A stretch of DNA of 64,000 nt, from assembly GCF_001956295.1 (NCBI RefSeq), contig NZ_MRTD01000003.1:124001-188000 (forward strand), given 5' to 3'. Below, one piece after another: positions 4,736-29,343 of the stretch (the stretch's first letter is position 1; every line of letters starts with the position of its first letter). The notes under the pieces were generated by a model. It was not told the DNA's origin, did not search any database, and saw nothing but the letters and a program-made list of their open reading frames with translations. A program made the position numbers and the translations under genes. This stretch comes from Paenibacillus sp. FSL A5-0031. Its GTDB lineage: Bacteria; Bacillota; Bacilli; Paenibacillales; Paenibacillaceae.

Positions 4736-4925
4736 TCAGGCTTCACTCCTTGCTTAGTCATTACGGGATAATCATATGCGATGATTGCAGTTTGAGTAAA
4801 GATACGATAAAACAAAGATGTTGTGATTGGATAAAAAGTGGTTGAGATCAGCTATCCAATCGGGCAAGTCCCGCATGGTATATTCGGTATGCATTCATCA
4901 TGGCATGAAGGAGTGGTACAGAAGC

Positions 4926-11202: not shown

Positions 11203-11306
11203 TGCATAAATGTCCGAATTCATTAAAAAAAGACCTATATTTCTAAATACGAACGATGGTCGTTTTTTCTACAATTGGAGGTGAAAACGGAAAGAGGTGA
11301 AGGACC

Positions 11307-12842
11307 ATGGGCACCGATTATGTGCTGCATATGAAAGGAATTAGCAAATCGTTTCCTGGCGTCAAGGCGCTTTCAAATGTTGATTTTGGTCTCAGGAAAG
11401 GCGAGATCCATGCGCTCATGGGAGAGAACGGCGCAGGAAAATCGACGTTGATTAAAGTAGCGACCGGCGTGCACAAATGGGATGCTGGAGAGGTGTTGCT
11501 TGCTGGCAGGACGATAGCTCCAAAATCTCCGCTGGAAGCACAGCGGCTTGGCATAAGTACGGTATATCAAGAGGTCAATTTATGCCCAAATCTTAGCGTG
11601 GCTGAGAACATTTATATTGGTCGTCATCCAAGAAAACGCGGATTAATAGACTGGCACAAAATGTACCAAGGCAGCGAGCGGCTGCTGGAGCGTCTTGACC
11701 TTGCGATTGATGTTAAGCAACCATTATCGCATTATTCGGTCGCTATTCAGCAGATGGTAGCCATTGCGAGAGCTGTTGATATTTCGAACGGTATTCTTAT
11801 ATTGGATGAGCCTACGTCAAGCCTTGATGCGAATGAGGTTAAACAGCTGTTCAAAGTTATGCGCATTCTAAAGCAAGAGGGCATGGGCATCGTATTTGTA
11901 ACTCATTTCCTAGACCAGGTATATGAAGTAACCGACCGAATTACGGTGCTGCGCAACGGGATGCTCGTCGGCGAATATTTAACGAAGGATTTAACCAAAA
12001 CAGAGCTTGTGTCCCATATGATCGGCAGGGAATGGAGCGTAGAAGAAGCAACAGGGAAAAAAGCAGTAGAGCGAACGGCTGGCGAAAACTTTTTGGAGGC
12101 CACCTCGCTTGGCAAACGAGGTAGCATTAATCCTATCGATCTTCAGATCGGGAAAGGGGAGGTGCTTGGTCTTGCAGGACTTCTTGGCTCAGGCCGAACA
12201 GAAATCGCTAAGCTCATCTTTGGCATCGACAAAGCGGATGAAGGCAGCTTGACCATAGACGGCGAGCTTATTTCTTCGATGTATCCGCAGAAAGCTATTC
12301 AGAAAGGGCTTGGATTCACGCCAGAGGATCGCAAAGTTGCAGGCATCATAGGAGAGCTTACCATTCGTGAAAATATCGTCTTGGCGCTGCAAGCCCGTAA
12401 AGGCCTCTTCTCATTCATACCGCTGCGCAAGCAGAAGGAAATCGCCAATTATTACATTGATTTGCTAAAGATCAAAACGCCAAGCGCGGAGCAGAAGATT
12501 GAAAATCTAAGCGGCGGTAATCAGCAAAAGGTTATTTTGGCGAGGTGGCTTGCTACGCAGCCGAAGCTGCTTATTCTGGATGAGCCGACACGCGGAATCG
12601 ATGTTGGTTCCAAGATGGAAATCCGCAAGCTCATTCTTGATTTGGCGGCAACAGGCATATCGATCCTCATCATATCGGCGGAGCTAGAGGAAATCGTTCA
12701 ATGCTGCAATCGGATTATCGTTTTACGCGATCGGATTAAGATCGGCGAGGTCGCCGGCGCAAACATGCGCGAGAACATTATTATGGAAATGATTGCGAAG
12801 GGAGCGGAAATGTATGGCGGGTCTGACGGGATTGGCGCGTAA
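11307..12842 (+). CDS. Furanose-type ABC transporter ATPase (YtfR-like)
   Basis: A 511-residue double ABC ATPase of the CUT2 sugar family. Domain 1 has Walker A GENGAGKST at residues 39-47 and Walker B GILILDEPTSSLD; domain 2 has LSGGNQQKVILARW and LLILDEPTRGIDVG. The gene order ATPase-permease-permease-binding protein matches the E. coli ytfR-ytfT-yjfF set, and the binding protein at 14920 strongly resembles YtfQ. AGAGGTGAAGGACC precedes the ATG. The 29-bp overlap with the next gene implies coupling. Import of a furanose-form sugar (galactofuranose or arabinofuranose) is inferred from the family. Confidence 0.9.
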   Translation: MGTDYVLHMKGISKSFPGVKALSNVDFGLRKGEIHALMGENGAGKSTLIKVATGVHKWDAGEVLLAGRTIAPKSPLEAQRLGISTVYQEVNLCPNLSVAENIYIGRHPRKRGLIDWHKMYQGSERLLERLDLAIDVKQPLSHYSVAIQQMVAIARAVDISNGILILDEPTSSLDANEVKQLFKVMRILKQEGMGIVFVTHFLDQVYEVTDRITVLRNGMLVGEYLTKDLTKTELVSHMIGREWSVEEATGKKAVERTAGENFLEATSLGKRGSINPIDLQIGKGEVLGLAGLLGSGRTEIAKLIFGIDKADEGSLTIDGELISSMYPQKAIQKGLGFTPEDRKVAGIIGELTIRENIVLALQARKGLFSFIPLRKQKEIANYYIDLLKIKTPSAEQKIENLSGGNQQKVILARWLATQPKLLILDEPTRGIDVGSKMEIRKLILDLAATGISILIISAELEEIVQCCNRIIVLRDRIKIGEVAGANMRENIIMEMIAKGAEMYGGSDGIGA

Positions 12843-13821
12843 TTTAAGCAAGCAGAAAATCATTTGGCCGATTCTGGCACTCGCTGTATTGTTTCTTTTC
12901 AATTTGATCGTCATCCCTGATTTTTTTCGAATGGAATGGAAGGATGGTCATTTATTCGGCAATTTAATTGATATTTTGAAAAATGGATCGCCGCTCATCA
13001 TTATTGCTATTGGCATGACTCTAGTCATTGCTAAAGAGGGAATTGATATATCCGTAGGATCAGTTCTCGCTATTTCGGGGGCTATCGCGGTATTTATGCT
13101 CGATGGTTATCCACTTTGGCTTGTCATTCTAGCAGGGGTATTTGCAGGGTTATTATGCGGCTTATGGAATGGGATGCTCGTTGCGATGATTGGCATTCAG
13201 CCGATGGTGGCTACCTTAATTTTGCTTACGATTGGCCGAGGAATCGCTCAACTAATTACGAGCGGGCAAGTGCTTACGACTAACGATAAGGCGTATCAGT
13301 TTATTGGAAAAGGGCATTTGCTAGGGCTGCCATTTCCACTGTTCATTGCGATGGCTGTATTTTTACTCGTATATCTATTCAAAACGCGTACCGCATTCGG
13401 ACTTTTTCTAGAGGCTGCCGGCGGCAATAAGACAGCGAGCAGCTATGCGGGTATACGTCCTAAAGTAATCTTCATGACCGCTTATACGATTACGGGCATT
13501 TGCGCCGGTATTGCCGGCATTATTATTAGTGCAAACGTAGCAAGTGCCGATGCGAACAATGCCGGACTGTGGATAGAGCTGGATGCTATTTTAGCTGTCG
13601 TAATTGGCGGAACCTCGATGCGTGGCGGACGCTTCTACCTTGGCGGAACGATCTTCGGAGCCTTGTTCATCCAAAGTTTAACGACGACGATTTATTCTTT
13701 GGGTGTTGAGCCTTCCAGTATTTTGCTCGTTAAAGCGGTTGTTGTTATTATCGTCTGCTTGATTCAATCCGACTTATTCCGGCAGTCATTCAAATTTGTG
13801 AAAAAGAAGGTGGCGGCATAA
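12814..13821 (+). CDS. Furanose-type ABC transporter permease 1 (YtfT-like)
   Basis: About 335 residues with eight to ten membrane helices and the BPD_transp_2 signature (IGMTLVIAKEGIDISVGSVLAISG; VIGGTSMRGGRFYLGG). The frame is open from 12793, but GGGAGCGG lies before the ATG at 12814, which starts the hydrophobic protein properly. It overlaps the ATPase gene by 29 bp and the next permease by one base. Two different permease genes side by side indicate a heterodimeric channel, as in YtfT/YjfF. Confidence 0.88.
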   Translation: MAGLTGLARNLSKQKIIWPILALAVLFLFNLIVIPDFFRMEWKDGHLFGNLIDILKNGSPLIIIAIGMTLVIAKEGIDISVGSVLAISGAIAVFMLDGYPLWLVILAGVFAGLLCGLWNGMLVAMIGIQPMVATLILLTIGRGIAQLITSGQVLTTNDKAYQFIGKGHLLGLPFPLFIAMAVFLLVYLFKTRTAFGLFLEAAGGNKTASSYAGIRPKVIFMTAYTITGICAGIAGIIISANVASADANNAGLWIELDAILAVVIGGTSMRGGRFYLGGTIFGALFIQSLTTTIYSLGVEPSSILLVKAVVVIIVCLIQSDLFRQSFKFVKKKVAA

Positions 13822-14849
13822 TGAAGCTGATTTCTCTGAAAATTAGCCATAACAATATTATTGTTTTGGCTACGCTGCTTCTTTTGTTTATTTTGTACGG
13901 ATCAGGTGCTGCGCTTTACAAGGGCTTTTTCTCCATGCAAGTATTTTTGAATCTATTTATAGACAACGCCTATCTCATTATTGTGGCCACAGGCATGGCA
14001 TTCGTCATTATAAAAGGCGGCATCGATTTATCCGTAGCTTCGGTCGTTGCGCTGATCAGCATGGTGTCGGCGTCACTCTTCCAGCATGGGGCAAACGCAC
14101 TTGTTGTAACGATCGTTGCTCTCGTCATTGGTACGCTGTTTGGGGCAGGACAAGGGTATTTAATTCAGAGATTTCAGCTGCATCCTTGGATTGTCACGCT
14201 GGCGGGAATGTTCCTTGCTAGAGGGATCAGCTTTCTCATCAGCACGGAGAGTATCGTTATTAGCAATTCGGTTTATGTGAAGCTCTCCCAATACAAAATT
14301 TATTTGTGGGGCGATCATTTTATAACGATTAGTGTCGTCATTGCGATTGCCGTTGTGATCGCTGCTCTTCTGATTGGGCGGTATTCCTCCTTCGGCAGGG
14401 CGGTGTATGCGATTGGCGGCAGTGAAAAGTCCGCTGTTTTGATGGGGCTGCCTGTTGCACGAACGACAATTCTTGTATACACCTTAAGCGGTTTGTTCTC
14501 TGCAATTGGGGGCATCGTGTTTACACTTTATATGCTGTCGGGCTATTCGCTGCATTTGATGGGGATGGAAATGGATGCAATTGCGTCGTGCGTTATTGGC
14601 GGTATTTTGCTCACTGGCGGATTTGGTTATTTGATCGGGCCAACGCTTGGCGTGCTTTGTACAGGTATTATACAAACGATCATTATGTTTCAAGGGACGC
14701 TCAGCTCTTGGTGGACTAAGATTACGATTGGATTTTTATTGTTTCTTTTCATGGCTTTTCAACGAATTATTGTGATGAGAAAAGAAAAAAACGCTTTGCC
14801 AGCTTCCAAAAATAAACCGAAATTTGAAAATAAAGTCGTTAATTTGTAA
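13821..14849 (+). CDS. Furanose-type ABC transporter permease 2 (YjfF-like)
   Basis: A 342-residue polytopic permease with the family pattern ATGMAFVIIKGGIDLSVASVV and AIGGSEKSAVLMGLP. It shares the fold but only limited sequence with the preceding permease, and probably pairs with it. Its ATG overlaps the previous stop (TAATG). The C-terminal tail after about residue 320 is charged and cytoplasmic. Confidence 0.88.
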   Translation: MKLISLKISHNNIIVLATLLLLFILYGSGAALYKGFFSMQVFLNLFIDNAYLIIVATGMAFVIIKGGIDLSVASVVALISMVSASLFQHGANALVVTIVALVIGTLFGAGQGYLIQRFQLHPWIVTLAGMFLARGISFLISTESIVISNSVYVKLSQYKIYLWGDHFITISVVIAIAVVIAALLIGRYSSFGRAVYAIGGSEKSAVLMGLPVARTTILVYTLSGLFSAIGGIVFTLYMLSGYSLHLMGMEMDAIASCVIGGILLTGGFGYLIGPTLGVLCTGIIQTIIMFQGTLSSWWTKITIGFLLFLFMAFQRIIVMRKEKNALPASKNKPKFENKVVNL

Positions 14850-14919
14850 ATACAGAACATTTGCAACATTTGTATATTGAGAGTGTAGCCAATACAAGTT
14901 CGATAGGGAGGAAATAAGA

Positions 14920-15969
14920 ATGAACAGAAAGAAACCGTTTATCGTCACGATGCTAGCTGCGATTATGCTGGTAGGCTTGATCGCCGGTTGTGGCAACAAC
15001 AGCAATAATGGGGGCAACAAACCAGCAAACGGAAATGCAACAAACAAGCCAACAGAGAATGCAGCAACGGAAGCACCACCGGAAGCGAACAAGAAGCTGG
15101 TTGTAGGATTCGCGCAAATCGGTGCGGAAAGCGGCTGGCGTGATGCTGAGACCGATTCGGTTAAAGCGACATTTAGCGAAGATCCGAACTTCGAGCTGAA
15201 ATTCTCTGACGCACAGCAAAAGCAAGAAAACCAAATTAAAGCGATCCGTACGTTTATCGCCCAAAAAGTAGATGCCATTGGACTTGCGCCAGTCGTAGAA
15301 TCAGGCTGGGAAACGGTATTAAAGGAAGCTAAAGATGCGAATATTCCAGTGTTTTTGCTAGACCGCGGCATTACAAAAGGCAATGAGGACTTGTATGTAT
15401 CGTTTATCGGTTCCGACTTTATTCTCGAGGGTCAAAACGCAGCAAAATGGATGATCGATGAGTTTGGCGCTGGCGCTCAAGTCAACATCGTTCAATTGGA
15501 AGGCACAGTAGGTGCAAGCGCAGCGAATGACCGTAAAAAAGGATTCGAGGATGCGATTGCTGGTGAAGCCGGCTACAAAATCGTTTATTCCCAAACAGGC
15601 GATTTCACTCGCGCCAAAGGCAAAGAGGTCATGGAAGCTTATTTGAAAAAGGATAAAAACATCCAAGTTGTCTACGCACATAATGACGATATGGCGCTAG
15701 GCGCGATTCAAGCGATTGAAGAAGCGGGCTTAAAGCCAGGTAAAGATATTAAAATTATCGGCGTTGACGGCATTAAAGCAGCTTTTGAAGCGATTGCAGA
15801 AGGTAAAATGAATGTTACTGTAGAATGTAATCCATTGCTGGGACCACAGCTGAAGCAAGCGATTCTCGATTACAAAGCTGGCACTACGCTCGAAAAATGG
15901 ATTAAATCGGATGAGGACGTTTATTTCGGCCAAAAAGCAATCGATGCGCTGCCAAATCGCAAATATTAA
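14920..15969 (+). CDS. YtfQ-like furanose-binding lipoprotein
   Basis: A 349-residue type-I sugar-binding protein. A signal peptide ends in a lipobox (VGLIAGCGNN), followed by an Asn/Gly/Thr-rich linker to about residue 55. The mature part reads closely like E. coli YtfQ: GFAQIGAESGWRDAET, DAQQKQENQIKAIRTFIAQ, GLAPVVESGWE, FLLDRGI, VQLEGTVGASAANDRKKGF, QTGDFTRAKGKEVMEAY and YAHNDDMALGAIQAIEEAG. It is last in the importer operon and should capture the sugar outside the membrane. YtfQ binds galactofuranose; here the nearby GH127 gene makes L-arabinofuranose an equally good candidate. The domain is repeated in the protein at 19092-20972. Confidence 0.92.
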   Translation: MNRKKPFIVTMLAAIMLVGLIAGCGNNSNNGGNKPANGNATNKPTENAATEAPPEANKKLVVGFAQIGAESGWRDAETDSVKATFSEDPNFELKFSDAQQKQENQIKAIRTFIAQKVDAIGLAPVVESGWETVLKEAKDANIPVFLLDRGITKGNEDLYVSFIGSDFILEGQNAAKWMIDEFGAGAQVNIVQLEGTVGASAANDRKKGFEDAIAGEAGYKIVYSQTGDFTRAKGKEVMEAYLKKDKNIQVVYAHNDDMALGAIQAIEEAGLKPGKDIKIIGVDGIKAAFEAIAEGKMNVTVECNPLLGPQLKQAILDYKAGTTLEKWIKSDEDVYFGQKAIDALPNRKY

Positions 15970-15999
15970 TCGTTATGGCAATTGAAGATAGGTAAATTA

Positions 16000-16042
16000 C
16001 GAGACTGCAGAAGAGAAAAATCTCTTATGCAGTTTCGTTTTT
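16000..16042 (+). terminator. Terminator after the binding-protein gene
   Basis: CGAGACTGCAGAAGAGA pairs with TCTCTTATGCAGTTTCG over an AAAA loop, followed by T5. It ends the transporter operon before the histidine kinase gene 45 bp further on, so the sensor genes probably have their own promoter or receive read-through. Confidence 0.88.
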
Positions 16043-16086
16043 CGCATTTCAAAGGAAATGATCACTATTTGATGAGGACGGATTGA

Positions 16087-17859
16087 ATGTTTATGCTAAG
16101 CGGTTTATTTGCGAATCGTAGTATCCGTTTCAAGCTTTTATTTTATTTCGTCATCATTACTTTATTTTCAATCGCTGCGCTCAGCATTCTGGGCAGCACC
16201 TTATACAAAAATGCAATTGAAGAGGAAACGAATGCACATACGGTGCAAATGATGGATCAGGTAAAAAACCACATTGAAGTATACATAAAAGAAATGGATA
16301 ACATTATTTATTATTTGTCGCAGGACGCGTCGGTCATCGAATTTATGAGAAGATCGAATAACGAATCAGGGCAGTTGAAGCTGCTGGATTCTAAGGTGAG
16401 GAAACTTCAGAGGGTCTATATAGAGAAGCATGTAGAAATTGCTGGAGCAATGATTGTGAGCCGCAACAACCAATTCGCAAGCAGCGGCTTAGAGCCGATT
16501 ACGAGAGATTTCATGACGGAAGAGCAGTGGTACAAGAAGGCAGCTCTTCAGCCGGAGCATATTCATTTGTTCAGCCATCCGATTGGGAGAAATATTAGAG
16601 CAGAGCAAAATTTAAGCGCCGATCAGGTGCTGTCGTTCGTGCGGGCCGTAAAGGACCCGTTGACCGGCCAAGTGCTTGGCGTTATTTTGATCGATATGAA
16701 ATTAGACATTATTCAGGCGATCGTAGAATCGGTATCGCTAGGGAAAAGCGGCTTTATTTTTATTATGGATGAGAATGGCGGTGTCGTGTATTCGCCGGTC
16801 AATCCGATTGTGTACCGCATTTCGGGCGATTGGATGGAGGGGCGCTCTGGCAAAGTCATTCGCCAAGTCAATGAGCTTGAATACCAGATGATCTATAATA
16901 CCTTTCCAGAGTTTGATTGGCGAATCGTCGGCGTGTTTCCGCTTAAGGAGTCGCTTCAAGTCGTTGCGGACATTCAATTTTATACCGTTATTATTGCGCT
17001 TGTCACGCTGCTGCTTGCCTTTATGGCATCCTGGTATTTCACGAATGCGATCGTTCGTCCCGTTGGGAAGCTGCGCAGTTTAATGAAGAAGGTAGAAGAA
17101 GGCGAGCTTCATCTGCGCTTTCCTAGTAAAACGAAAGATGAGATCGGACAGCTGGGCAATAGCTTTAACCATATGGTGCAGGAAATTGACAATTTAATTC
17201 ATCTTGTATATTTGGAGCAAAGAGAGAAACGCGAGGCCGAGCTGAAAATATTGCAAGCGCAAATTAAACCTCATTTCCTCTATAACACGCTGGATACGAT
17301 TCAGTGGATGGCACAGGACCGGGATGCCGATGATATCGTCGATATCGTAGTTGCCTTAACTCATCTCTTCCGAATCAGCCTTAGCAAAGGTCGGGAGGTT
17401 ATTCCGCTTAGCGACGAGATTCAGCATGTGGAGAGCTATTTAATTATTCAAATGGCCAGATATGAGGATAAGTTATCCTTTGAGATCGACATTCCGCAGG
17501 AGCTGCAGACGCAAAGCGTACTCAAAATCATTTTGCAGCCGCTCGTCGAGAATGCAATTTATCATGGCATCAAAGAAAAGCTGGCTAAAGGCACGATTCG
17601 TATACATGGCTCTGCAGAAGACAATAAGCTGGTTCTTGTTGTTGAAGATGACGGTGTCGGGTTTGAAGCGGAGCGGCTGATTCAGATGAATGAATCGTTT
17701 CATGCTATCCGGCAAAGCAGCGAGGATCGAGGTTATGGATTGTACAATGTGAATGAACGAATCAAGCTGTCATATGGCTCTGGTTATGGTCTTACCATTG
17801 AGAGCGAGCGGGGACAAGGCTCCAAAATCGTGGTAAAGCTACCGTTAATAGTTGGATAA
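16087..17859 (+). CDS. YesM-type sensor histidine kinase
   Basis: A 590-residue membrane kinase. The first membrane helix is at about residues 15-37, an extracellular dCache-like sensor at 38-300, the second helix near 300-320 (VIIALVTLLLAFMASWYF), and a HAMP domain at 320-375. The His_kinase domain has QIKPHFLYNTLD with the phospho-acceptor H396. The HATPase_c domain has LVENAIYHG (N box) and VEDDGVGF. It phosphorylates the YesN-type regulator encoded 24 bp downstream. The third gene, a tandem sugar-binding protein, probably presents ligands to its extracellular domain, as XylFII does to LytS in Clostridium; that is inference. Confidence 0.92.
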   Translation: MFMLSGLFANRSIRFKLLFYFVIITLFSIAALSILGSTLYKNAIEEETNAHTVQMMDQVKNHIEVYIKEMDNIIYYLSQDASVIEFMRRSNNESGQLKLLDSKVRKLQRVYIEKHVEIAGAMIVSRNNQFASSGLEPITRDFMTEEQWYKKAALQPEHIHLFSHPIGRNIRAEQNLSADQVLSFVRAVKDPLTGQVLGVILIDMKLDIIQAIVESVSLGKSGFIFIMDENGGVVYSPVNPIVYRISGDWMEGRSGKVIRQVNELEYQMIYNTFPEFDWRIVGVFPLKESLQVVADIQFYTVIIALVTLLLAFMASWYFTNAIVRPVGKLRSLMKKVEEGELHLRFPSKTKDEIGQLGNSFNHMVQEIDNLIHLVYLEQREKREAELKILQAQIKPHFLYNTLDTIQWMAQDRDADDIVDIVVALTHLFRISLSKGREVIPLSDEIQHVESYLIIQMARYEDKLSFEIDIPQELQTQSVLKIILQPLVENAIYHGIKEKLAKGTIRIHGSAEDNKLVLVVEDDGVGFEAERLIQMNESFHAIRQSSEDRGYGLYNVNERIKLSYGSGYGLTIESERGQGSKIVVKLPLIVG

Positions 17860-17883
17860 CTCGAAATGGCTGGGGGTATGGAG

Positions 17884-19095
17884 ATGTGGAAGCTGCTTAT
17901 AGCGGATGATGAGCCGAAGATCCGCAGGGGATTAGCCAAGGTGCTTCCTTGGGAGGAGCTTGGCATAGAACTGGTAGGCGAAGCCGAGAACGGCTTGCAA
18001 GCGCTTGAGCTCGCGGAAGAGCGTAAGCCCGATATTTTGTTTGTTGATATTTGCATGCCATTTGTAGACGGGCTGGAGTTCATTGAGCGGCTGCGGCAAA
18101 CGCTGGAACGCAGCATTGTCATCGTTATTTCAGGACATGATGAGTTTCGTTACGCGCAGCAGGCGGTAAAGCTGCATGTATTCGAATACATGCTCAAGCC
18201 TGTAATGAAAAGCAAGCTGGAGACTGTTGTACGCAAAGCGATAAGCGAGCTTGAGCAGAAACGAGACAAGGAGCAAAAGCTGGAATGGATGGATCAGCAG
18301 CTCAAAACCAATTCCGTCGCGATTCGGGATACGTTTTTGTTGAAATGGCTGGAAGGCATTATTGCGCCTGAGGAAATTCATAATCAGACCGCCTTCCTAA
18401 GACTGGGTTGGGTAGATGCTGTCGGCATGATCGCCTTTAAGGTGATTCAAAACGTGGAATCCGGCAAGGCGATGCGCGTGTGGGACCGCGACCTTCTGGA
18501 GTTTGCTTTGAAAAACATTACAGAGGATCTGCTTGCTGGCAATGGAGCTGGCAATCATGTCGTGCTTAACGATAAGAAAGGTCAAATCATCGTCATGGGC
18601 TGTTTAGACAGCTATAACGAATGGCTTAAGTTAGGACAGAAAATTCAAGATAAAATGGAAGCACTTCTTGAAAAAACGATTATTTTTGAGCAGCAGGCAG
18701 TGGAGAGTACCGAAGAGCTTCCGAAGCTGTACCGTACGTTGTCAAGAGAGCTTAGCAGCAAAGGCAGCTTGTCTCCGATCGTTATTTTGACGAAAAAGTT
18801 TATTGATCGTAATTTCTACATGCCTTCGCTGACGCTTGGCGATGTCGCTGAAGGTGTACAGGTGAGTCCTACTTATTTAAGCAAGCAGCTGAAGCGGGAG
18901 CTTGGGCTTTCTTTTATCGATTATTTGACGGAGGTTCGAATTCGGAAAGCGATTCAATTGATGAGCGATCCCTTGTTCAAAGTGTATGAAATTGCGGAGA
19001 AGGTAGGGTACAGCAGCCAGCATTATTTCAGCAGCGCCTTTAAGAAGGTGACTGGAACCTCGCCGATGGTCTATAAGAAAGGGATACGTTCATGA
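17884..19095 (+). CDS. YesN-type response regulator with AraC output domain
   Basis: A receiver domain (about 1-120) has the acidic pair D8-D9, the phospho-acceptor D55 in ILFVDICMP and the lysine in YMLKPV. A linker of about 150 residues follows. A C-terminal AraC helix-turn-helix pair comes last (LTLGDVAEGVQVSPTYLSKQLK and VYEIAEKVGYSSQHYFSSAFKK). The frame is open from 17866; the ATG at 17884 is preferred because GGGGG lies seven bases upstream and the receiver fold starts there. Its stop overlaps the next ATG (ATGA). The likely targets are the transporter genes just upstream; no binding site can be defined from sequence alone. Confidence 0.92.
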   Translation: MWKLLIADDEPKIRRGLAKVLPWEELGIELVGEAENGLQALELAEERKPDILFVDICMPFVDGLEFIERLRQTLERSIVIVISGHDEFRYAQQAVKLHVFEYMLKPVMKSKLETVVRKAISELEQKRDKEQKLEWMDQQLKTNSVAIRDTFLLKWLEGIIAPEEIHNQTAFLRLGWVDAVGMIAFKVIQNVESGKAMRVWDRDLLEFALKNITEDLLAGNGAGNHVVLNDKKGQIIVMGCLDSYNEWLKLGQKIQDKMEALLEKTIIFEQQAVESTEELPKLYRTLSRELSSKGSLSPIVILTKKFIDRNFYMPSLTLGDVAEGVQVSPTYLSKQLKRELGLSFIDYLTEVRIRKAIQLMSDPLFKVYEIAEKVGYSSQHYFSSAFKKVTGTSPMVYKKGIRS

Positions 19096-20972
19096 TTGGA
19101 AGAAAGGCAGCAGGTTTTCTTATCCTTTGCTTGATTTTTGTCGCTTTGGTAGTATGGACGCGGGCGTGCGTAATGAACGAGAAGGTAACGAAAAATGACA
19201 GCGGATACAATTATTTGATCGGAGTGTCCCAGCCCAATTTGAGCGAGCCTTGGCGCGTGGCCATGAATGAGGAAATTCAGCAGGAGGTCAGCAGGCACTC
19301 GGATATGCGCGTTATCTTCACCGATGCCGCGCAAAGCAGCGAGCAGCAGGCGAAGGATGTGAAGAAGCTGGTTGGATATGGCGTCGATCTGCTCATCATA
19401 TCGCTTGATGATCCAGTAGCTCTCACACAAACAGTAAGCTCCGTTTACGAGAATATCCCTGTTATCGTGCTCGGAAGAGGCGTGACAGGATATGATTATA
19501 CGCTATACGTAGGTACGGACGATGAAATGATCGGCAGAAAAGCAGGCGAATTTGCAATGGAAACGCTGGGGGAGTTGGGCGGTAAAATAATTGAAATGCA
19601 AGGGCTGGCCGGTTCTCCGACCGTTGAAGAACGCAGCAATGGGTTCCGAGAAGCGATTCATAATTCCAAGCTTAGCATCGTGCAGACGATGAATGCGGAT
19701 TGGCAGCGCGACCTTGCGGAGGATCTGCTAACGGATTGGTTAAAAGATCAACCCGAGGTTGACTTAATCTTTGCCCATAATGAAGCTATGGCATTAGGCG
19801 CATACCGAGCAGTACAGAAGCTTGATAGGAATGATATTAATATTATCGGTATCGATGGCGTCAATTCTGAAAACGGCAGCCTGCAGCTCGTTTCGGAGAA
19901 CAAGCTGACAGGCACTTTTACAAGCCCCCCTGGCGGCAAGGAAGCGATCCGTTATGCGGTCGATATATTGAATAAAGAAAAGGGAATTCCCAAAAAGGTT
20001 ATTTTGCGCAGTCAGAAAATAACGAATCAACTAGAGGGGAAGGGCGAGCCGCGCGTTACGCATTCACCAGCGCCTACGCTCCAAGAGGCACAATCTCCAA
20101 TTGTATTAGGTTTTGCGCAGGTGGGTACGGAAAGCGGCTGGCGAATCGCGAATACAAAGTCGGTGATTAATGCGGCAAAGGAGGCAGGCGTGGAGCTGCT
20201 TTATGAGAATGCGGAGCAGTCGCAGGATAAACAAATTGAACTGATTCGGCAGTTTATAAACAAAAAGGTGGATGTGATCGCCTTCTCACCGAAGACGGAG
20301 ACCGGCTGGGAAGAGGTATTGAAGGAAGCGAAGGAGGCAGGAATTCCAGTCATATTGTCTGATCGTGAAGTGAACGTAAGCGATGATACGCTGTGGACAG
20401 CTTACATCGGTTCAGATTTTCGCGAGGAAGGCAGAAGGGCGGCAAGATGGTTGATGCAAGAGGCAGAGGAAGGACAAAGCTATCAATTCGTCGAGCTGCA
20501 AGGAACCGCACACTCTGCTCCAGCAGTTGGGCGAATGCAGGGGTTCAAGGAGGTTATCCAAACCGATCAAAACTTCACTTTGCTTGAATCATTACAAGGC
20601 GACTTTACGAAGAAGAAGGGCAAAGAGCTGATGGCGGCGGCGCTGAAACGTCATGGCTCTGCGATAAACGTCGTTTATTCCCATAATGATGATATGGCTT
20701 TAGGCGCTATTGAGGCCATAGAGGATTTTGGCTTGCGGCCGGGTAAGGACATTACGATTATCTCTGTTGATGCAACAAAGTCAGCTCTTAAAGCTTTAAG
20801 TATCGGAAAGCTTAACTTTGCAGTTGAATGCAACGCGCTGCTTGGTCCTCAGCTCATGAAGGCTGTTAAGGATTTGTCGGAGGGCAAGGAGCTTCCGATG
20901 AAGATTATTACGGCTGAAGGTGTTTTTACGCAGGAATCTGCCAAAATGGCGCTGGCAAGCCGTGAATATTAA
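19092..20972 (+). CDS. Membrane-anchored protein with two tandem periplasmic sugar-binding domains
   Basis: A 626-residue protein with an N-terminal hydrophobic helix (residues about 8-24) and no convincing lipobox (TRAC), so it is probably a signal-anchor protein facing outward. Residues about 42-310 form one type-I sugar-binding domain (IGVSQPNLSEPWRVAMNEE, FAHNEAMALGAYRAVQ, IIGIDGVN). After a Pro/Thr-rich linker, residues about 336-626 form a second one that is YtfQ-like: GFAQVGTESGWR, QFINKKVDVIAFSPKTETGWEEVL, VYSHNDDMALGAIEAIEDFG. The second half is much closer to the importer binding protein at 14920 than to the first half. Translation is coupled to the response regulator. Binding proteins are normally single-domain; this looks like a dual-ligand co-sensor for the kinase, which is inferred. 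Confidence 0.9.
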   Translation: MIGRKAAGFLILCLIFVALVVWTRACVMNEKVTKNDSGYNYLIGVSQPNLSEPWRVAMNEEIQQEVSRHSDMRVIFTDAAQSSEQQAKDVKKLVGYGVDLLIISLDDPVALTQTVSSVYENIPVIVLGRGVTGYDYTLYVGTDDEMIGRKAGEFAMETLGELGGKIIEMQGLAGSPTVEERSNGFREAIHNSKLSIVQTMNADWQRDLAEDLLTDWLKDQPEVDLIFAHNEAMALGAYRAVQKLDRNDINIIGIDGVNSENGSLQLVSENKLTGTFTSPPGGKEAIRYAVDILNKEKGIPKKVILRSQKITNQLEGKGEPRVTHSPAPTLQEAQSPIVLGFAQVGTESGWRIANTKSVINAAKEAGVELLYENAEQSQDKQIELIRQFINKKVDVIAFSPKTETGWEEVLKEAKEAGIPVILSDREVNVSDDTLWTAYIGSDFREEGRRAARWLMQEAEEGQSYQFVELQGTAHSAPAVGRMQGFKEVIQTDQNFTLLESLQGDFTKKKGKELMAAALKRHGSAINVVYSHNDDMALGAIEAIEDFGLRPGKDITIISVDATKSALKALSIGKLNFAVECNALLGPQLMKAVKDLSEGKELPMKIITAEGVFTQESAKMALASREY

Positions 20973-21057: not shown

Positions 21058-22218
21058 ATGTCAAACCTTATTGATAGAGTGAAAAAGCTAGCAGCAGGTT
21101 TTGATGAAGAAACGTTGCGAGCGATTGAAATAAACCCTTTGCTAGTCGAAGCGGGTGCCCTTCAAGCGGTAGCTCCTTATATAAAGGAAAAGCAGTATAG
21201 TCAGGTAGTTATCGCTGCGGATGCGATTACATACAACATTGCCGGTAAACTTCTAGAGGAAGCCATTGCCGCGCAAGGTATTTCTGTTCATGTGACGATC
21301 ATAAAGGCGGACCGTCAAGGCGATGTCATTGCGGATGAAGCATCGATCGTGCAGCTCTTATTGGATATTCAACTGCGCAAAGCACAGGTAGTCATTGCAG
21401 CAGGCTCAGGAACGATACATGATATTTCTCGTTATGCCGCTTATACAACGGGCATTCCCTTTGTATCCGTTCCGACTGCGCCATCTGTTGACGGCTTCAA
21501 TTCCAAAGGAGCGCCGATTATTATTCGCGGCGAGAAGAAGACGATCGCGGCCATTGGCCCCGATGCGATATTTGCTGATTTGGAAATCCTCACAGCGGCG
21601 CCAGCAGTCATGGTAGCTGCTGGCTTTGGCGATATGCTGGGAAAATATACATCGTTATTTGATTGGAGCTTTGGCGTAGCTGAAGGTGGTGAGCCCTATT
21701 CAGAAGAGGTTGCTGAAATTACGCGTATTGCACTTAACAAATGTGTAGAGAATGCCTCGTTAATTGCAACCCGTGACCAGCAAGGCATTCGCATACTTAT
21801 TGAAGCGCTTATTGAGTCCGGCCTTGCCATGCTCTTATTCGGTCAATCTCATTCGGCGTCTGGATCAGAGCATCATTTGTCGCATTTCTGGGAAATGGAA
21901 TATATTCGCCTTGGCAAAAGACAGCTGCTGCATGGTGCAAAGGTTGGCGTAGCCTGCGCGGAAATTTCCAAGCTTTATCACCAGCTTGCTGCTGAAGAGG
22001 AGGGTCTAGCTTTTACAGCTAATCCTGAGAAGGTACGGGAGGCTATTGCCGCACTTCCGGATGAAGCCCAAATCAGAGCGTGGCTAAAGCAGGTTGGCGG
22101 ACCGACCACGACGGAGGAGCTCGGCGTTGATAAGGAGCTGCTCACGGCAAGCTTGCAGAAAGCGCATCTCGTTAGGCCAAACAGATATACGTTACTAAGG
22201 GTTTATAATTCCATTTAA
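21058..22218 (+). CDS. egsA: sn-Glycerol-1-phosphate dehydrogenase (AraM/EgsA-like)
   Basis: A 386-residue protein of the iron-containing/glycerol dehydrogenase fold. NAD-binding features include VVIAAGSGTIHDISRYAAY and VPTAPSVDGFNSKGAPI; metal-ligand histidines appear in LLFGQSHSASGSEHHLSHFWEME. This pattern and length fit AraM/EgsA, which in Bacillus subtilis makes sn-glycerol-1-phosphate from dihydroxyacetone phosphate and is encoded in the arabinose operon. Its position behind a furanose sensing and uptake cluster fits that association. It is separated by 85 bp from the tandem binding protein, with no terminator between. Confidence 0.88.
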   Translation: MSNLIDRVKKLAAGFDEETLRAIEINPLLVEAGALQAVAPYIKEKQYSQVVIAADAITYNIAGKLLEEAIAAQGISVHVTIIKADRQGDVIADEASIVQLLLDIQLRKAQVVIAAGSGTIHDISRYAAYTTGIPFVSVPTAPSVDGFNSKGAPIIIRGEKKTIAAIGPDAIFADLEILTAAPAVMVAAGFGDMLGKYTSLFDWSFGVAEGGEPYSEEVAEITRIALNKCVENASLIATRDQQGIRILIEALIESGLAMLLFGQSHSASGSEHHLSHFWEMEYIRLGKRQLLHGAKVGVACAEISKLYHQLAAEEEGLAFTANPEKVREAIAALPDEAQIRAWLKQVGGPTTTEELGVDKELLTASLQKAHLVRPNRYTLLRVYNSI

Positions 22219-25544: not shown

Positions 25545-25615
25545 TTTGTTTGTTTTTGAAATAATCATATTCAAACATAAACAAATGTGTTATGATCGAT
25601 TCAAACAAATACAAA
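25545..25615 (+). promoter_or_regulatory. Three-copy 16-bp operator motif and promoter of the rhamnose operon
   Basis: A 16-mer of the form TTCAAAMAHAWACAAA occurs three times: inverted at 25545-25560, and direct at 25570-25585 and 25600-25615. Thirteen of 16 positions are identical in all three. A -10-like TATGAT lies at 25591-25596 between copies two and three. The direct copies are 30 bp apart, about three helical turns. They are the natural candidates for binding of the DeoR-family regulator encoded at the end of the operon. Confidence 0.65.
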
Positions 25616-25636
25616 ACATCATTCGGAGGTATATCC

Positions 25637-27706
25637 ATGGTACAAAGTTTGTGGGAAAACGAAAAAGCATCGCAGTTGGAAGGCGGATTAGCTGAGCTCG
25701 TATATCGCTCCAACATCATCGGTGCAGATCGCAGAGTTTGCAATTACGGCGGCGGCAATACGTCTAGCAAAACAATCGTAAAAGATTTCCGTGGTCGCGA
25801 TGTTGAAGTGATGTATGTGAAGGGCAGCGGTTCGGATCTTGCTTCTATGAAAGCAGGCAATTTTACTGGACTGCGGATGGATGATATCCGTCCATTATTT
25901 GAACGTGCTGAAATGCCGGACGAAGAGATGGTTGCTTACCTTGTCAACTGCATGATCGATTCGAAGCACCCGCGTGCGTCGATTGAAACGCTATTGCATG
26001 CTTTTCTTCCATTCAAACATGTGGATCATACACATCCCGATTCTATTATTAGCTTGTGCTGTGCGGATAACGGAAAAGCGCTTGCGAAGGAAATTTTCGG
26101 CGACCGTTTTGTCTGGGTTCCTTATGTTCGTCCTGGCTTCAACCTCTCCAAAATGATTGCCGAAGGTGTTCTTGCCAATCCAAATGCCGAGCTGGTGCTG
26201 ATGGAAAAGCACGGCCTTGTTACTTGGGGCGAGACTAGCGAGGAATGTTACGCGCAAACGATCAAAATCATTTCCGAGGCAGAGGCATTCATTGAATCTC
26301 GTTTTGACGAGGCTTCATTGTTTGGCGGCGTGAAATACGAGGTGCTCGAAGCTGATGTTCGCAAAAGCGTAGCTGCACAGGTTATGCCAACCATTCGCGG
26401 CGCAGTGAGCGATGCGAAGAAGATGATTTTGACATTTGACGATGAGGCGGATGTGCTTGCATTCGTAAGCGGGAATAATTCTCCGACATTATCGCAGGTC
26501 GGCGCTGCATGCCCGGATCATTTGGTGCATACGAAGGTTGTTCCATTGTTTATTGACTGGACGCCAAATGCAGAGGATATCGATGGTTTGAAGGCGAAAC
26601 TATCAGAAGGAATCGCTGCATACAAAGAGCAATATAAAGCTTATTTTGAACGCAACAAAAATGAAGGCGACATCATGTTTGAAGCAGCGCCTCGCGTAAT
26701 TCTAATTCCGGGAATCGGTATGATCAACACCGGCAAGAGCTGGGCGATGGCACAAGTGAGCGGAGCGCTATACCACCGTGCGATTGCCGTGATGCGCGGC
26801 GCAACAGCATTAGGTGATTTCGTATCGCTTAGCGAGAACGAGTCGTACAACGTGGAATACTGGCCATTAGAGCTTTACAAATTGTCGCTTGCTCCGGCTG
26901 AAACGGAATTTTCGCGTAAGGTTGCTTTCATTACAGGCGGCGCTGGCGGTATCGGAAGTGAAACAGCACGCCGTTTAGTATCAGAGGGTGCGCATGTTGT
27001 GCTTGCAGATCTTAATCTTGAAGGCGCGCAAAAGGTTGCCTCTGAAATTAATGAGAAATTTGGCGAATGCCGAGCAACAGCCGTGAAAATGGATGTGACG
27101 AGCGAAGAGCAGGTCAAAGCTGCTTATGCAGAGACAGCACTTGCTTACGGCGGCGTGGACATTATCGTGAACAACGCTGGTCTTGCGACTTCAAGCCCAT
27201 TCGACGAGACATCGCTTAAGGAATGGAATTTGAATATGAATGTGCTCGGAACAGGTTATTTCCTGGTCGCTCGCGAAGCATTTAAATTAATGAAGCAGCA
27301 AAGCATTGGCGGCAACATGGTGTTCATCGGTTCGAAAAACTCTGTGTACGCGGGTAAAAATGCATCTGCTTATAGCTCGGCAAAAGCGCTTGAAGCTCAT
27401 TTGGCACGCTGTATCGCAGCTGAGGGCGGCGAATTCGGCATTCGTGTAAATACGATTTTGCCGGATGCGATTTTGCAGGGGTCAGCAATTTGGAACGGCA
27501 GCTGGCGCAATGAACGTGCTGCGGCTTATGGCATTGAGCCGGATCAGCTGGAAGAATACTACCGCAAGCGCACGACGCTGCTCGTCAACATTTATCCGCG
27601 CGACATCGCAGAGGGCATTGCATTTTTTGCCTCCTCCAAAGCAGATAAAACGACAGGCTGTATGTTAACTATTGACGGCGGCGTACCTGCTGCATTCACC
27701 CGTTAG
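25637..27706 (+). CDS. rhaEW: Bifunctional rhamnulose-1-phosphate aldolase / lactaldehyde dehydrogenase
   Basis: A 689-residue fusion, the same length as Bacillus subtilis RhaEW. The N-terminal half is a class II aldolase (CNYGGGNTSSK, zinc-type HVDHTHPDSII, LMEKHGLVTWG). It cleaves L-rhamnulose-1-phosphate to dihydroxyacetone phosphate and L-lactaldehyde. The C-terminal part from about residue 428 is a short-chain dehydrogenase (TGGAGGIGSETA near 433, NNAG, and the catalytic YSSAK near 579-583), which oxidises or reduces the lactaldehyde. The frame is open from 25592, but GGAGGTATATCC selects the ATG at 25637. It is the first gene of the operon. Confidence 0.94.
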   Translation: MVQSLWENEKASQLEGGLAELVYRSNIIGADRRVCNYGGGNTSSKTIVKDFRGRDVEVMYVKGSGSDLASMKAGNFTGLRMDDIRPLFERAEMPDEEMVAYLVNCMIDSKHPRASIETLLHAFLPFKHVDHTHPDSIISLCCADNGKALAKEIFGDRFVWVPYVRPGFNLSKMIAEGVLANPNAELVLMEKHGLVTWGETSEECYAQTIKIISEAEAFIESRFDEASLFGGVKYEVLEADVRKSVAAQVMPTIRGAVSDAKKMILTFDDEADVLAFVSGNNSPTLSQVGAACPDHLVHTKVVPLFIDWTPNAEDIDGLKAKLSEGIAAYKEQYKAYFERNKNEGDIMFEAAPRVILIPGIGMINTGKSWAMAQVSGALYHRAIAVMRGATALGDFVSLSENESYNVEYWPLELYKLSLAPAETEFSRKVAFITGGAGGIGSETARRLVSEGAHVVLADLNLEGAQKVASEINEKFGECRATAVKMDVTSEEQVKAAYAETALAYGGVDIIVNNAGLATSSPFDETSLKEWNLNMNVLGTGYFLVAREAFKLMKQQSIGGNMVFIGSKNSVYAGKNASAYSSAKALEAHLARCIAAEGGEFGIRVNTILPDAILQGSAIWNGSWRNERAAAYGIEPDQLEEYYRKRTTLLVNIYPRDIAEGIAFFASSKADKTTGCMLTIDGGVPAAFTR

Positions 27707-27719
27707 GAGGTTAGGCGAT

Positions 27720-28091
27720 ATGATCCAAGGGAGAGGCGAAAAATCTTGGTATATACCGGATGGTTATATACCGCCAGATAGCACGGGAACGCTAACCAGC
27801 CATGAATCGATATGCGTGCTGAATTGCTCCACCGAAGAGGCCATTATTCATATTACGATTTATTTTGAGGATCGCGAGCCGATGGAAGATATTCAAGTTG
27901 TTGTTCCCGGCAGACGAACAAACCATATACGCACCAGCTCATTAATGAAGGAAGGGGCGTCGATTCCAATCGGCGTTCCTTACGCCATTGAGGTGCAGAG
28001 CAATATTCCAATCATTGTACAATACAGCAGATTAGATTCGACGCAGGCAGAGAATACGTTGATGTCTACGATGGCTTTTCCAATCAAATAG
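27720..28091 (+). CDS. Sensory rhodopsin transducer-family protein (ASRT/DUF1362-like)
   Basis: A 123-residue soluble beta-rich protein. The start WYIPDGYIPPDS and the later VVVPGRRTNHIRTSSL, IPIGVPYAIEVQSNIPIIVQYSRLD match the family of the Anabaena sensory rhodopsin transducer. AGGAGGTTAGGCGAT precedes the ATG at 27720. It lies 13 bp after rhaEW and 31 bp before the isomerase, so it is inside the rhamnose operon. No rhodopsin gene is in the window, so light signalling is unlikely here. The family fold is sugar-binding-like, so a carbohydrate-linked role, such as binding rhamnose or a phosphorylated intermediate, is possible but unproven. Confidence 0.85.
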   Translation: MIQGRGEKSWYIPDGYIPPDSTGTLTSHESICVLNCSTEEAIIHITIYFEDREPMEDIQVVVPGRRTNHIRTSSLMKEGASIPIGVPYAIEVQSNIPIIVQYSRLDSTQAENTLMSTMAFPIK

Positions 28092-28122
28092 GTTGAAAAT
28101 ATAAATGAGAGGGTGTTCCATA

Positions 28123-29343
28123 ATGACTGATCGCGCTTATACGTTTTTTGAGGAGCAGCAGAAAGAAAGAGGCATTAATATAGATGAAGTGAAAGCTAGA
28201 TTGAAAGCGCTCAAAATTGAGACGCCGTCATGGGGCTATGGGGATTCAGGCACGCGCTTTAAAGTGTTCCAGAAGGAAGGTGTGCCTCGCAATCCGTTTG
28301 AGAAGGTTGAAGATGCGGCGCAAGTGCATAAGCTGACGGGGATCGCTCCTTCAGTAGCTATTCATATCCCATGGGACAAGGTAGAAGATTACGGCAAGCT
28401 CAGAAGCCATGCAGAAAGTCTTGGACTTACCATCGGCGCAGTGAACCCGAACCTGTTCCAGGACGAGGATTACATGCTGGGCAGCGTAACCAATTCCGAT
28501 GCGGCGATCCGCCGCAAAGCGACGAACCATTTGCTCGAGTGCGTCGATATTGCGAAAGAAACGGGCTCGAATGAATTCAGCTTGTGGTTTGCAGACGGTA
28601 CGAACTATCCGGGCCAAGGCCATATCCGCAAGCGTAAAGCTTGGATGCAGGAAGCGCTAGCCGAAATGTACAGCGCTTTGACGCCTGACATGCGCTTGCT
28701 GATTGAATACAAATGTTTCGAGCCGGCGTTTTATCATACGGATCTTGCCGATTGGGGCATGGCTTACAACCTCGCGCAAAAGCTCGGACCGCAAGCGGAA
28801 GTGCTTGTCGATACAGGCCACCATCTGCCTGGCGCGAACATTGAGCATATCGTTGCTTACTTGCTAGACGAGAAACGCCTTGGCGGATTCCATTTTAACA
28901 GCCGTAAGTACGCAGATGATGATCTTATTGTCGGAACGGTAAACCCGTACGAGCTGTTCTTGATTTTCTATCAAATCTTGAGTGCGGCAGGCGATGCGGA
29001 TGCTGCTGTTCGCGGCAATGCAGAGAGTATTACTTATATGATTGACCAGTCACATAATATCGAGCAAAAAATCCCTGCCATGCTGCGCTCCGTCCTGAAC
29101 GTGCAAACCCAGCTGGCAAAGGCGCTGCTCATTAACCATGATGAAGTGAATGATGCTGCTGAACGCAATGATGTTCTTGGCGCTGAGGATGCTGTGCGCC
29201 GCGCATTTGAATTCGATGTTACACCGCTTTTGCACGCGATTCGCGAAGAGCAGGGCTTGCCGCATGATCCAATGAAAGCATACCTAAGCAGCAGCTATGG
29301 CAAAGACATATTGGCGAGAGGCAAGGGCGGTGCCAGCTGGTGA
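28123..29343 (+). CDS. rhaI: L-rhamnose isomerase (Pseudomonas stutzeri RhaI subtype)
   Basis: About 406 residues of a TIM-barrel isomerase. Metal and substrate residues appear in IGAVNPNLFQDEDYMLGS, EFSLWFADGTNYPGQGHIRKRK, LLIEYKCFEPAFYHTD, LVDTGHHLPGANIE and GGFHFNSRKYADDDLIVG. This is the P. stutzeri-type L-rhamnose isomerase, distinct from the E. coli/B. subtilis RhaA sequence type. It converts L-rhamnose to L-rhamnulose. The frame opens at 28105, but GAGAGGGTGTTCC precedes the ATG at 28123. It overlaps rhaB by four bases. Confidence 0.9.
   Translation: MTDRAYTFFEEQQKERGINIDEVKARLKALKIETPSWGYGDSGTRFKVFQKEGVPRNPFEKVEDAAQVHKLTGIAPSVAIHIPWDKVEDYGKLRSHAESLGLTIGAVNPNLFQDEDYMLGSVTNSDAAIRRKATNHLLECVDIAKETGSNEFSLWFADGTNYPGQGHIRKRKAWMQEALAEMYSALTPDMRLLIEYKCFEPAFYHTDLADWGMAYNLAQKLGPQAEVLVDTGHHLPGANIEHIVAYLLDEKRLGGFHFNSRKYADDDLIVGTVNPYELFLIFYQILSAAGDADAAVRGNAESITYMIDQSHNIEQKIPAMLRSVLNVQTQLAKALLINHDEVNDAAERNDVLGAEDAVRRAFEFDVTPLLHAIREEQGLPHDPMKAYLSSSYGKDILARGKGGASW

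Follow-up and report, generated by a model that had tools for sequence, protein, structure and literature searches.

A tandem two-domain sugar-binding protein as the probable co-sensor of a two-component system beside a furanose importer in Paenibacillus

Results

In Paenibacillus sp. FSL A5-0031, genes for a histidine kinase, an AraC-type response regulator and a membrane-anchored protein with two sugar-binding domains of different kinds adjoin a GafA/YtfQ-type importer. We consider it likely that these three proteins form a three-component system in which a tethered co-sensor with two sites senses an extracellular furanose and induces its uptake system, the adjoining importer, whose substrates would be arabinose and similar sugars in a rare ring form. 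The DNA examined (GCF_001956295.1, contig NZ_MRTD01000003.1, positions 124,001–188,000, forward strand; 64,000 nt) is referred to as the window, and all coordinates are positions within it (Table 1). The different kinds of the two halves, the match of the C-terminal half to the neighboring importer and the conserved DNA elements extend an earlier note made on this sequence.

Table 1. Features of the importer and sensor genes in the window
Feature	Position	Strand	Basis or remark
Conserved element 1 (putative operator)	11208..11251	+	~56 bases 5' of ytfR, directly 5' of conserved TACAAT
YtfR/GafB-like ATPase, importer component	11307..12842	+	NF041861, 704 bits (cut-off 850)
YtfT-like permease	12793..13821	+	NF041862, 359 bits (cut-off 535)
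YjfF-like permease	13821..14849	+	NF008630, 390 bits (above cut-off 363)
Conserved element 2 (putative operator)	14811..14854	+	~66 bases 5' of gafA; overlaps yjfF 3' end
GafA/YtfQ-like transport binding protein, distinct from candidate co-sensor	14920..15969	+	NF041827, 369 bits (cut-off 510)
Terminator-like hairpin and T-run, between gafA and kinase gene	15999..16043	+	Fold z
Sensor histidine kinase, 590 aa	16087..17859	+	Pfam, AlphaFold2
Response regulator, receiver and AraC-type HTH, 409 aa	17866..19095	+	Pfam
Candidate tandem co-sensor (626 aa): single membrane helix, then two type-I sugar-binding domains	19092..20972	+	ORF, Pfam, AlphaFold2
Tandem protein: membrane helix/signal anchor, residues 1–27	19092..19172	+	AlphaFold2 helix 2–27, Cys26
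Tandem protein: N-terminal binding domain, residues 41–311, BT1754-type	19212..20024	+	2x7x match, tree
Tandem protein: low-confidence linker, residues 315–333	20034..20090	+	pLDDT <50
Tandem protein: C-terminal binding domain, residues 338–626, GafA/YtfQ-type	20103..20969	+	GafA structure matches, pocket

Architecture of the sensor genes

The kinase, which we take to be of the YesM type, comprises a membrane helix, an extracytoplasmic dCache_1 domain (42–282), HAMP, His_kinase and HATPase_c (Pfam). In structure comparisons of its AlphaFold2 model (pLDDT 81.2, pTM 0.49), the ectodomain resembles known dCache domains, for example that of PscC (6mni, Z 21.6), and the kinase domain resembles GanS (6swk, Z 22.6); other dCache domains head the best 50 matches, and LytSN is not among the matches listed. 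The regulator combines Response_reg with an AraC-type HTH (Pfam). The earlier note had described the three genes as translationally linked, which applies to the second junction only, because overlap is confined to the regulator and binding-protein genes (4 bases, ATGA); the kinase stop lies 6 bases 5' of the earliest possible regulator ATG (17866), a gap of at least that length. Most relatives' regulators align from residue 7, corresponding to ATG 17884 (403 aa), and this is likely the true start, judging from the alignment; the kinase–regulator gap would then be 24 bases.

The anchored pair of type-I sugar-binding domains proposed previously for the third protein is recovered both as two Peripla_BP_4 stretches (Pfam) and in the AlphaFold2 model of the protein alone, a check that had been suggested (19-row alignment; pLDDT 86.8, pTM 0.81): a single helix (residues 2–27) is followed by two separate domains (modeled at residues 41–311 and 338–621), with the N-terminal half membrane-proximal. 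The anchor cysteine is kept in 13 of 13 same-genus proteins aligned, where its surroundings resemble a weak lipobox or the remains of one; in more distant tandem proteins, lipoboxes of classical appearance or plain helices take the place of this anchor. The two halves differ in origin, the first being BT1754-type and the second GafA-type.

The N-terminal half

The N-terminal half matches the BT1754 structure 2x7x (profile E 7.2e-44; fold Z 35.7), and in a 67-row tree with few outgroups, in which BT1754 occupies a long branch, N-halves and BT1754 together split from RbsB, GafA, the C-halves and single co-sensors with support of 100/99. Nine of its 12 pocket positions, assigned from RbsB like those of the C-half below, are identical to those of fructose-binding BT1754 in the window's protein. 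Across the family, W54 is present in 18 of 18 covering rows, and S104, R129, R181 and D255 in all 19 proteins, while the D89 equivalent is Gly in 11/19 and the N190 equivalent is Ser in 5/19. Pocket conservation is 0.72 versus a background of 0.51, a value reached by 121 of 10,000 random draws, which we count against the proposed mechanism; this site is less constrained than the C-terminal one. The weaker conservation and the D89 and N190 substitutions, together with the membrane-proximal position and the kinship to a domain fused to a kinase, could indicate that only the C-half binds sugar and that the N-half serves mainly for kinase docking, its own site being weak or vestigial in Bacilli. 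We regard such a one-site sensor as unlikely, in view of the invariant pocket residues and the identities to BT1754.

Free single-domain relatives of the N-half matched in 17 of 398 genomes searched, two of which hold the tandem gene. As candidate co-sensors in Bacillota these were rejected: importer genes lie beside the match in 13/13 neighborhoods viewed, as for RbsB (13 of the 15 non-tandem genomes were covered, all but G163 and G650).

The C-terminal half

The C-terminal half matches the GafA structures 6hb0, 6hbd and 6hyh (E ~1e-86), with 38–50% identity to 2vk2, 5ocp, 6hbd and 6hbm (49% to 6hbd) and 47% to the operon's own GafA. An origin by recent copying of that GafA is not supported: all 33 tandem C-halves fall on one side of a branch (SH-aLRT 95) in a quickly built 134-row tree, although support is only 84/77 when 11 C-halves are placed in the 67-row tree. 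Against NCBIfam NF041827 the whole tandem protein scores 356.8 bits, below the cut-off of 510, as does the operon's own GafA.

At pocket positions that we assumed from RbsB, rather than computed from coordinates, the C-half keeps the furanose pocket residues of GafA/YtfQ: at 11 of 12 positions, 30 or more of the 33 tandem C-halves have the GafA residue, and the twelfth is V or I in both groups (for two positions the equivalence could be shifted by one residue, and using the alternative does not alter the result). Conservation of this pocket is 0.92–0.93 versus a background of 0.55, equaled in 0 of 10,000 random draws. PDB titles of GafA structures name L-arabinofuranose and D-galactofuranose as ligands, in line with the portion of PMC10191376 that describes binding of both sugars by GafA. 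By homology, the ligand of the C-site would most likely be L-arabinofuranose, and possibly D-galactofuranose.

Of 102 positions that are strongly conserved in GafA, 93 carry the GafA residue in half or more of the tandem rows, which would also fit a protein whose C-half feeds the GafBCD permease, uniting transport and sensing. This dual use appears improbable to us: the glycine at 474 (RbsB Gly134 position), present in 101/101 compared GafAs, occurs in only 7 of 33 tandem C-halves, and a search of seven genomes for a separate gafA located one in six. In the seventh, the metagenome-assembled genome of locus L098, none was found. Replacement of GafA by the tandem protein at the six loci with no gafA in view was rejected for five of them, where gafA lies elsewhere in the genome. 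A 2.7-kb match in Clostridium thailandense (L095), at first sight a pair of split genes, proved to consist of a tandem gene and, after it, a gafA of its own.

Gene order and conserved elements

In a comparison of 34 distinct tandem genes across Bacillota, from Paenibacillus to Clostridia, the triad is conserved: the regulator gene lies directly 5' of the tandem gene in 32/34 loci and the kinase gene 5' in 31/34. Four loci account for the exceptions: contig ends truncate L095 and L098, L099 is without the kinase and L102 is without a regulator in place. GH127-, GH43- or GH2-type genes occur near several tandem loci.

Within the genus, 13 of 51 genomes carry the tandem gene, the window's own included, and in a same-species genome it lies on a single 7.6-Mb contig; because of these occurrences, and with 34 distinct loci on record, an assembly fusion was rejected. 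The earlier note had named such a fusion, or loss of ligand contacts in one domain, as grounds for abandoning its reading; neither applies: core contact positions are retained in each pocket, and the tandem gene did not arise through assembly.

The placement of the tandem gene 3' of the regulator gene in 32/34 loci also bears on whether the kinase dCache domain senses the signal directly, with the tandem protein only sharpening the response or presenting the ligand. We hold this to be quite unlikely given that gene order, although the ectodomain has the dCache fold of many direct sensors and, according to PMC10384115, the Cua kinase and regulator can sense cellobiose by themselves, at lower efficiency.

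A 44-base conserved element precedes both ytfR and gafA. Allowing up to two mismatches, the 7.8-Mb genome of the window contains exactly two sites (11208 and 14811), and the reversed-pattern control gives 0. Weights derived from 14 sites found the element, at 15 bits or more, in 9/16 held-out tandem loci and 0/35 other gafA loci; with refitted weights, 27 of the 34 tandem loci have it before gafA and 22 have it before ytfR, and the 62 gafA-type loci lacking the tandem gene gave a single weak match (13.8). No element was found with the refitted weights in tandem loci L096, L097, L102 and L190, which counts against the proposed mechanism. We infer that the regulator pairs with these elements. 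Between gafA and the kinase gene, an 86-nt hairpin region folds with z −4.97 (0 of 200 shuffles equally stable) and is absent from the list of a simple terminator scan.

Discussion

We propose that binding of a sugar would change the membrane-tethered co-sensor, in which a membrane-proximal BT1754-type sensor domain is joined to a distal GafA-type furanose-binding domain, and that the changed protein would dock on the kinase's dCache domain. Once phosphorylated, the AraC-type regulator would activate two promoters, before ytfRT-yjfF and before gafA, the predicted direction of response being induction of uptake of that sugar. Located behind gafA past the terminator-like hairpin, the triad might be topped up by read-through. 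The co-sensor role suggested previously gains support because the kinase–regulator–tandem triad is conserved, transport has a separate GafA and conserved elements precede the importer genes. With control for YtfR only, mirror-tree partial correlations of the kinase ectodomain are 0.32 with the N-half and 0.30 with the C-half; they drop to 0.00–0.10 with the regulator and kinase core controlled, which weighs against the mechanism. These values single out neither half as the one docking on the kinase.

The earlier note had raised the possibility of one kinase reading two sugars, or one sugar at two concentrations. More tentatively, the BT1754-type and GafA-type sites might each have a ligand of its own, or might bind one sugar in two forms, one of them the furanose; the kinase, reading both sites, would then detect coincidence or a ratio. 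Freshly released furanose could in that case be reported by the GafA-type site before mutarotation, a sign of active polymer breakdown nearby, and the furanose importer be gated accordingly.

No description of this tandem co-sensor was found in the open-licence PMC papers searched, or in the available parts of PMC10384115, PMC9602780, PMC10191376, PMC4194401 and PMC13068155. A conserved two-domain form, ranging from Paenibacillus to Clostridia, is added to kinase sensing that depends on substrate-binding proteins. Its two binding sites are distinct and ready-made, and the window's genome has just two copies of its DNA element, which makes testable both the integration of two ligands in one chain by a binding-protein-dependent kinase and bacterial sensing of the short-lived arabinose furanose form released by arabinofuranosidases.

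Comparison with known systems

As in AraPST and XylFII-LytS-YesN, a binding-protein gene adjoins those of a kinase and an AraC-type regulator, and an importer with its own binding protein lies nearby. In AraPST of Geobacillus stearothermophilus and XylFII-LytS-YesN of Clostridium beijerinckii, one substrate-binding protein senses and another transports, as set out in part of PMC10384115. The structures of AraP (6sw4), XylFII (5xsj) and GanP (6gq0) are single-domain chains of 273–290 residues, as the earlier note had stated of known co-sensors such as XylFII; a single binding domain is typical of solved co-sensors rather than a stated definition. The protein described here, in contrast, holds two domains of different ancestry in one chain.

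The N-half resembles BT1754 in tree grouping, pocket and fold. BT1754 senses fructose, and its domain is part of a Bacteroides hybrid kinase chain (an excerpt of PMC3243724), whereas the N-half belongs to a separate tethered ORF, is not fused to a kinase and is followed by a second binding domain. The C-half shares its identity and pocket residues with GafA/YtfQ of GafABCD, and differs in having lost the glycine at the Gly134 position in 26/33 tandem proteins and in not being the operon's sole GafA. Tandem type-II domains, found in the sensors EvgS and BvgS and the transporter GlnPQ, belong to another fold class. In EvgS and GlnPQ, as listed in the literature, a single chain similarly carries a pair of binding domains in front of a kinase or permease; there the tandem domains are fused to the kinase or permease itself, whereas here they would form a separate co-sensor.

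Architecture of the probable sensor triad

The histidine kinase, response regulator and two-domain sugar-binding protein proposed in the earlier note are all borne out as open reading frames carrying the domains claimed for them. The gene overlaps that it described hold at one junction: the regulator and binding-protein genes share four bases (ATGA), while none are shared by kinase and regulator. In the AlphaFold2 model of the 626-residue tandem protein (pLDDT 86.8, pTM 0.81), a single helix (residues 2–27) precedes two complete type-I binding domains, the N-half (41–311) and the C-half (338–621), joined by a low-confidence linker (315–333); the high pTM hints at a defined packing of the two domains. 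A cysteine lies close to the helix end in 13/13 same-genus tandem rows, the anchors at the related loci L093, L094 and L096 carry a classical-looking lipobox, and other tandem proteins (e.g. L087, L089–L092) have a Cys-free anchor helix; the feature kept seems to be tethering rather than the chemistry of the anchor. The genome contains 41 Peripla_BP_4 stretches; the tandem gene accounts for two of these and is the only gene among them whose open frame exceeds 560 residues.

Features of the window discussed in the text
Feature	Position	Remark
Other sugar ABC importer	485–3183	ATPase and permease
GH127-like gene	4827–6812	beta-L-arabinofuranosidase-like (Pfam)
Conserved element 1	11208–11251	upstream of ytfR
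Conserved element 2	14811–14854	overlaps 3' end of yjfF coding region
Terminator-like hairpin	15999–16043	strong; between gafA and kinase gene
Sensor histidine kinase gene	16087–17859	
Response regulator gene	17884 (likely start)–19095	first possible start 17866
Tandem binding protein gene	19092–20972	626 residues
Glycerol-1-phosphate-dehydrogenase-like gene	21058–22218	directly downstream of tandem gene
L-rhamnose genes	25592–29343	RhaD-type bifunctional aldolase/dehydrogenase; Gram-positive RhaA

Distribution and origin of the tandem protein

Full-length tandems were found in 13 of 51 same-genus genomes, 21 of 394 family genomes and 2 of 398 genomes sampled across the phylum, this genome being counted each time. 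Among the matches listed, the species genomes with tandems belong to Paenibacillus, Cohnella, Peribacillus, Bacillus, Neobacillus and Gracilibacillus, and further to Pelosinus, Ruminiclostridium, Clostridium and uncultured Clostridia including Butyrivibrio. The regulator gene lies directly upstream of the tandem gene in 32 of 34 distinct loci and the kinase gene upstream of it in 31; L095 and L098 end at contig ends. The regulator-to-tandem junction measures −4 bases in 26 of these 32 loci, −8 in two, −1 in two, 0 in one and +1 in one. A Clostridiaceae MAG (L099, 4911–6767) has the regulator, and the place of its kinase is taken by a large protein bearing fn3 and F5/8-type domains; in a Butyrivibrio MAG (L102, 4917–6881) the tandem protein comes straight after the kinase, with no regulator in between. 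The importer gene gafA is visible in the stretch examined at 28/34 tandem loci, and searches of the genomes behind the other six and L099 recovered a separate gafA in all except that of L098. Owing to the hairpin that separates gafA from the kinase gene, the sensor genes may be expressed at a lower level than gafA.

The C-half resembles GafA/YtfQ (E about 1e-86 against 6hb0, 6hbd and 6hyh), sharing 49% identity with MSMEG_1712, whose structure has galactofuranose bound, and 47% with GafA, the transport protein of this operon. The structure nearest to the N-half is 2x7x, in which the sensor domain of BT1754, a fructose binder, was solved (Z 35.7). In a 67-row tree, in which the BT1754 branch is long, support of 100/99 sets 33 N-halves together with BT1754 apart from the C-halves, the single co-sensors, GafA and RbsB, and the 11 C-halves included have branch support of 84/77. 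All 33 C-halves lie on one side of a branch (SH-aLRT 95) when 134 GafA-type rows are placed in a quick tree. Because N-halves and C-halves group in this manner, the fusion was probably one old event, and derivation of the C-half as a recent copy of the adjoining GafA is disfavoured. The N-half precedes the C-half in 38/38 tandem rows, duplicates counted.

Conservation of the two binding sites

The contact positions of RbsB were carried to each half through its structure-match alignments. Across 19 proteins, mean pairwise identity at the C-site is 0.93 versus 0.55 in other columns, with 0/10,000 random draws as high; a second alignment shifts two of the twelve equivalences by one residue (399 and 580 instead of 400 and 579), giving 0.92 and again 0/10,000. 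Bar one V/I position, the dominant residue at the twelve positions is equal in 33 tandem C-halves and 101 GafAs; position 399 is S or A in GafA. The corresponding N-site values are 0.72 versus 0.51, with 121/10,000 draws as high (19 proteins). W54 is kept in 18/18 covering rows and S104, R129, R181 and D255 in 19/19, the D89 equivalent is Gly in 11/19, and the N190 equivalent is Ser in 5/19; the N-site of the window protein matches BT1754 at 9/12 positions. On these figures both sites keep contact residues, so the finding that would have refuted the earlier note, a domain stripped of every ligand contact, did not arise; the N-site is, by sequence conservation, less constrained than the C-site.

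At nine of 102 GafA-conserved positions the GafA residue occurs in under half of tandem C-halves. Among them is position 474, Gly in 101/101 GafAs versus 7/33 tandem C-halves, which corresponds to RbsB Gly134 as placed by a common ELQG motif and a common Arg seven residues on. The RbsB face with Gly134 is the contact face for permease and chemoreceptor; the titles of PDB entries 1drj, 1drk and 2dri mention studies of RbsB protein–protein interaction. Mirror-tree comparison of the kinase ectodomain with the halves gave r of 0.32 for the N-half and 0.30 for the C-half when YtfR was the only control, but 0.00–0.10 once regulator and kinase core were controlled, and so favours neither half as the partner of the kinase.

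Candidate ligands and neighbouring genes

GafA binds L-arabinofuranose and D-galactofuranose, according to PMC10191376. Relatives of the window's GH127-like gene occur in L040, close to its tandem gene, and in L168, where the relative lies upstream of the gaf operon and an aldose-1-epimerase is also present. Proteins of GH43 or GH2 type are encoded near tandem loci of several species, and some of them bear SLH or dockerin domains. In 6 of the 33 remaining loci, every one of them from the same genus, the tandem gene is followed by a relative of the AraM-like, glycerol-1-phosphate-dehydrogenase-like gene; an L-arabinose isomerase is encoded elsewhere in the genome. Our best guess for the C-site ligand is L-arabinofuranose, and a fructose-like or an arabinose furanose are candidates for the N-site. 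The window also encodes L-rhamnose genes and part of a different sugar importer, whose binding protein may be the Peripla_BP_4 gene spanning the window start.

A conserved element at gaf operons

An alignment of six same-genus species revealed a nearly invariant 44-base element, AAATGTCCGAA...TCTAAATACG, upstream of ytfR. Across the whole genome, a relaxed pattern (at most 2 mismatches) has exactly two matches, elements 1 and 2, and a reversed-pattern control has zero. Weights built from 14 sites of tandem loci (threshold 15 bits) were applied to 16 tandem loci that had not contributed to them and were neither duplicates nor near copies of loci that had; the element scored at least 15 bits in nine and fell below this in L096, L097, L098, L099, L101, L102 and L190. 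None of 35 tandem-free gafA-type loci, Paenibacillus and Cohnella included, reached 15 bits (best 10.1). With weights refitted on 21 sites, from loci partly the same as those scored (threshold 13 bits), 30/34 tandem loci have at least one site, all but L096, L097, L102 and L190; within 600 bases, a site precedes gafA in 27/34 and ytfR in 22/34. These refitted weights gave one weak match (13.8) among 62 tandem-free loci. The site stands before no recognised gene in L094 and L098, and before the kinase gene in L166, where importer genes are absent from view. The regulator would be the obvious candidate to bind these elements.

Eight inspected Paenibacillus and Cohnella gaf loci (L104, L120, L124, L126, L134, L142, L149 and L150) follow another design, its Pfam domains taken from one full set: a divergent single-domain binding protein (293–337 aa as called) instead of the tandem, a larger regulator (532–616 aa) and a distant kinase (29–32% identity). 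In six, all but L120 and L134, the operon ends with a second gafA-type gene, and the conserved element is absent from all eight (14-site weights). Since these loci combine a single-domain protein with another regulator and kinase and lack the element, the gafABCD-type importer has, on comparative genomic grounds, two alternative designs of putative co-sensor, of which the tandem is one.

Comparison with known systems

Three-component sugar sensing is already described, in PMC10384115, for XylFII-LytS, a Geobacillus system and CuaDSR, and solved structures exist for GanP and GanS. The open-licence PMC papers searched yielded no description of a tandem type-I co-sensor; tandem binding domains are known in EvgS-type sensors and GlnPQ. 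XylFII, AraP and GanP, the co-sensors with solved structures, each consist of a single domain, whereas the tandem protein has two.
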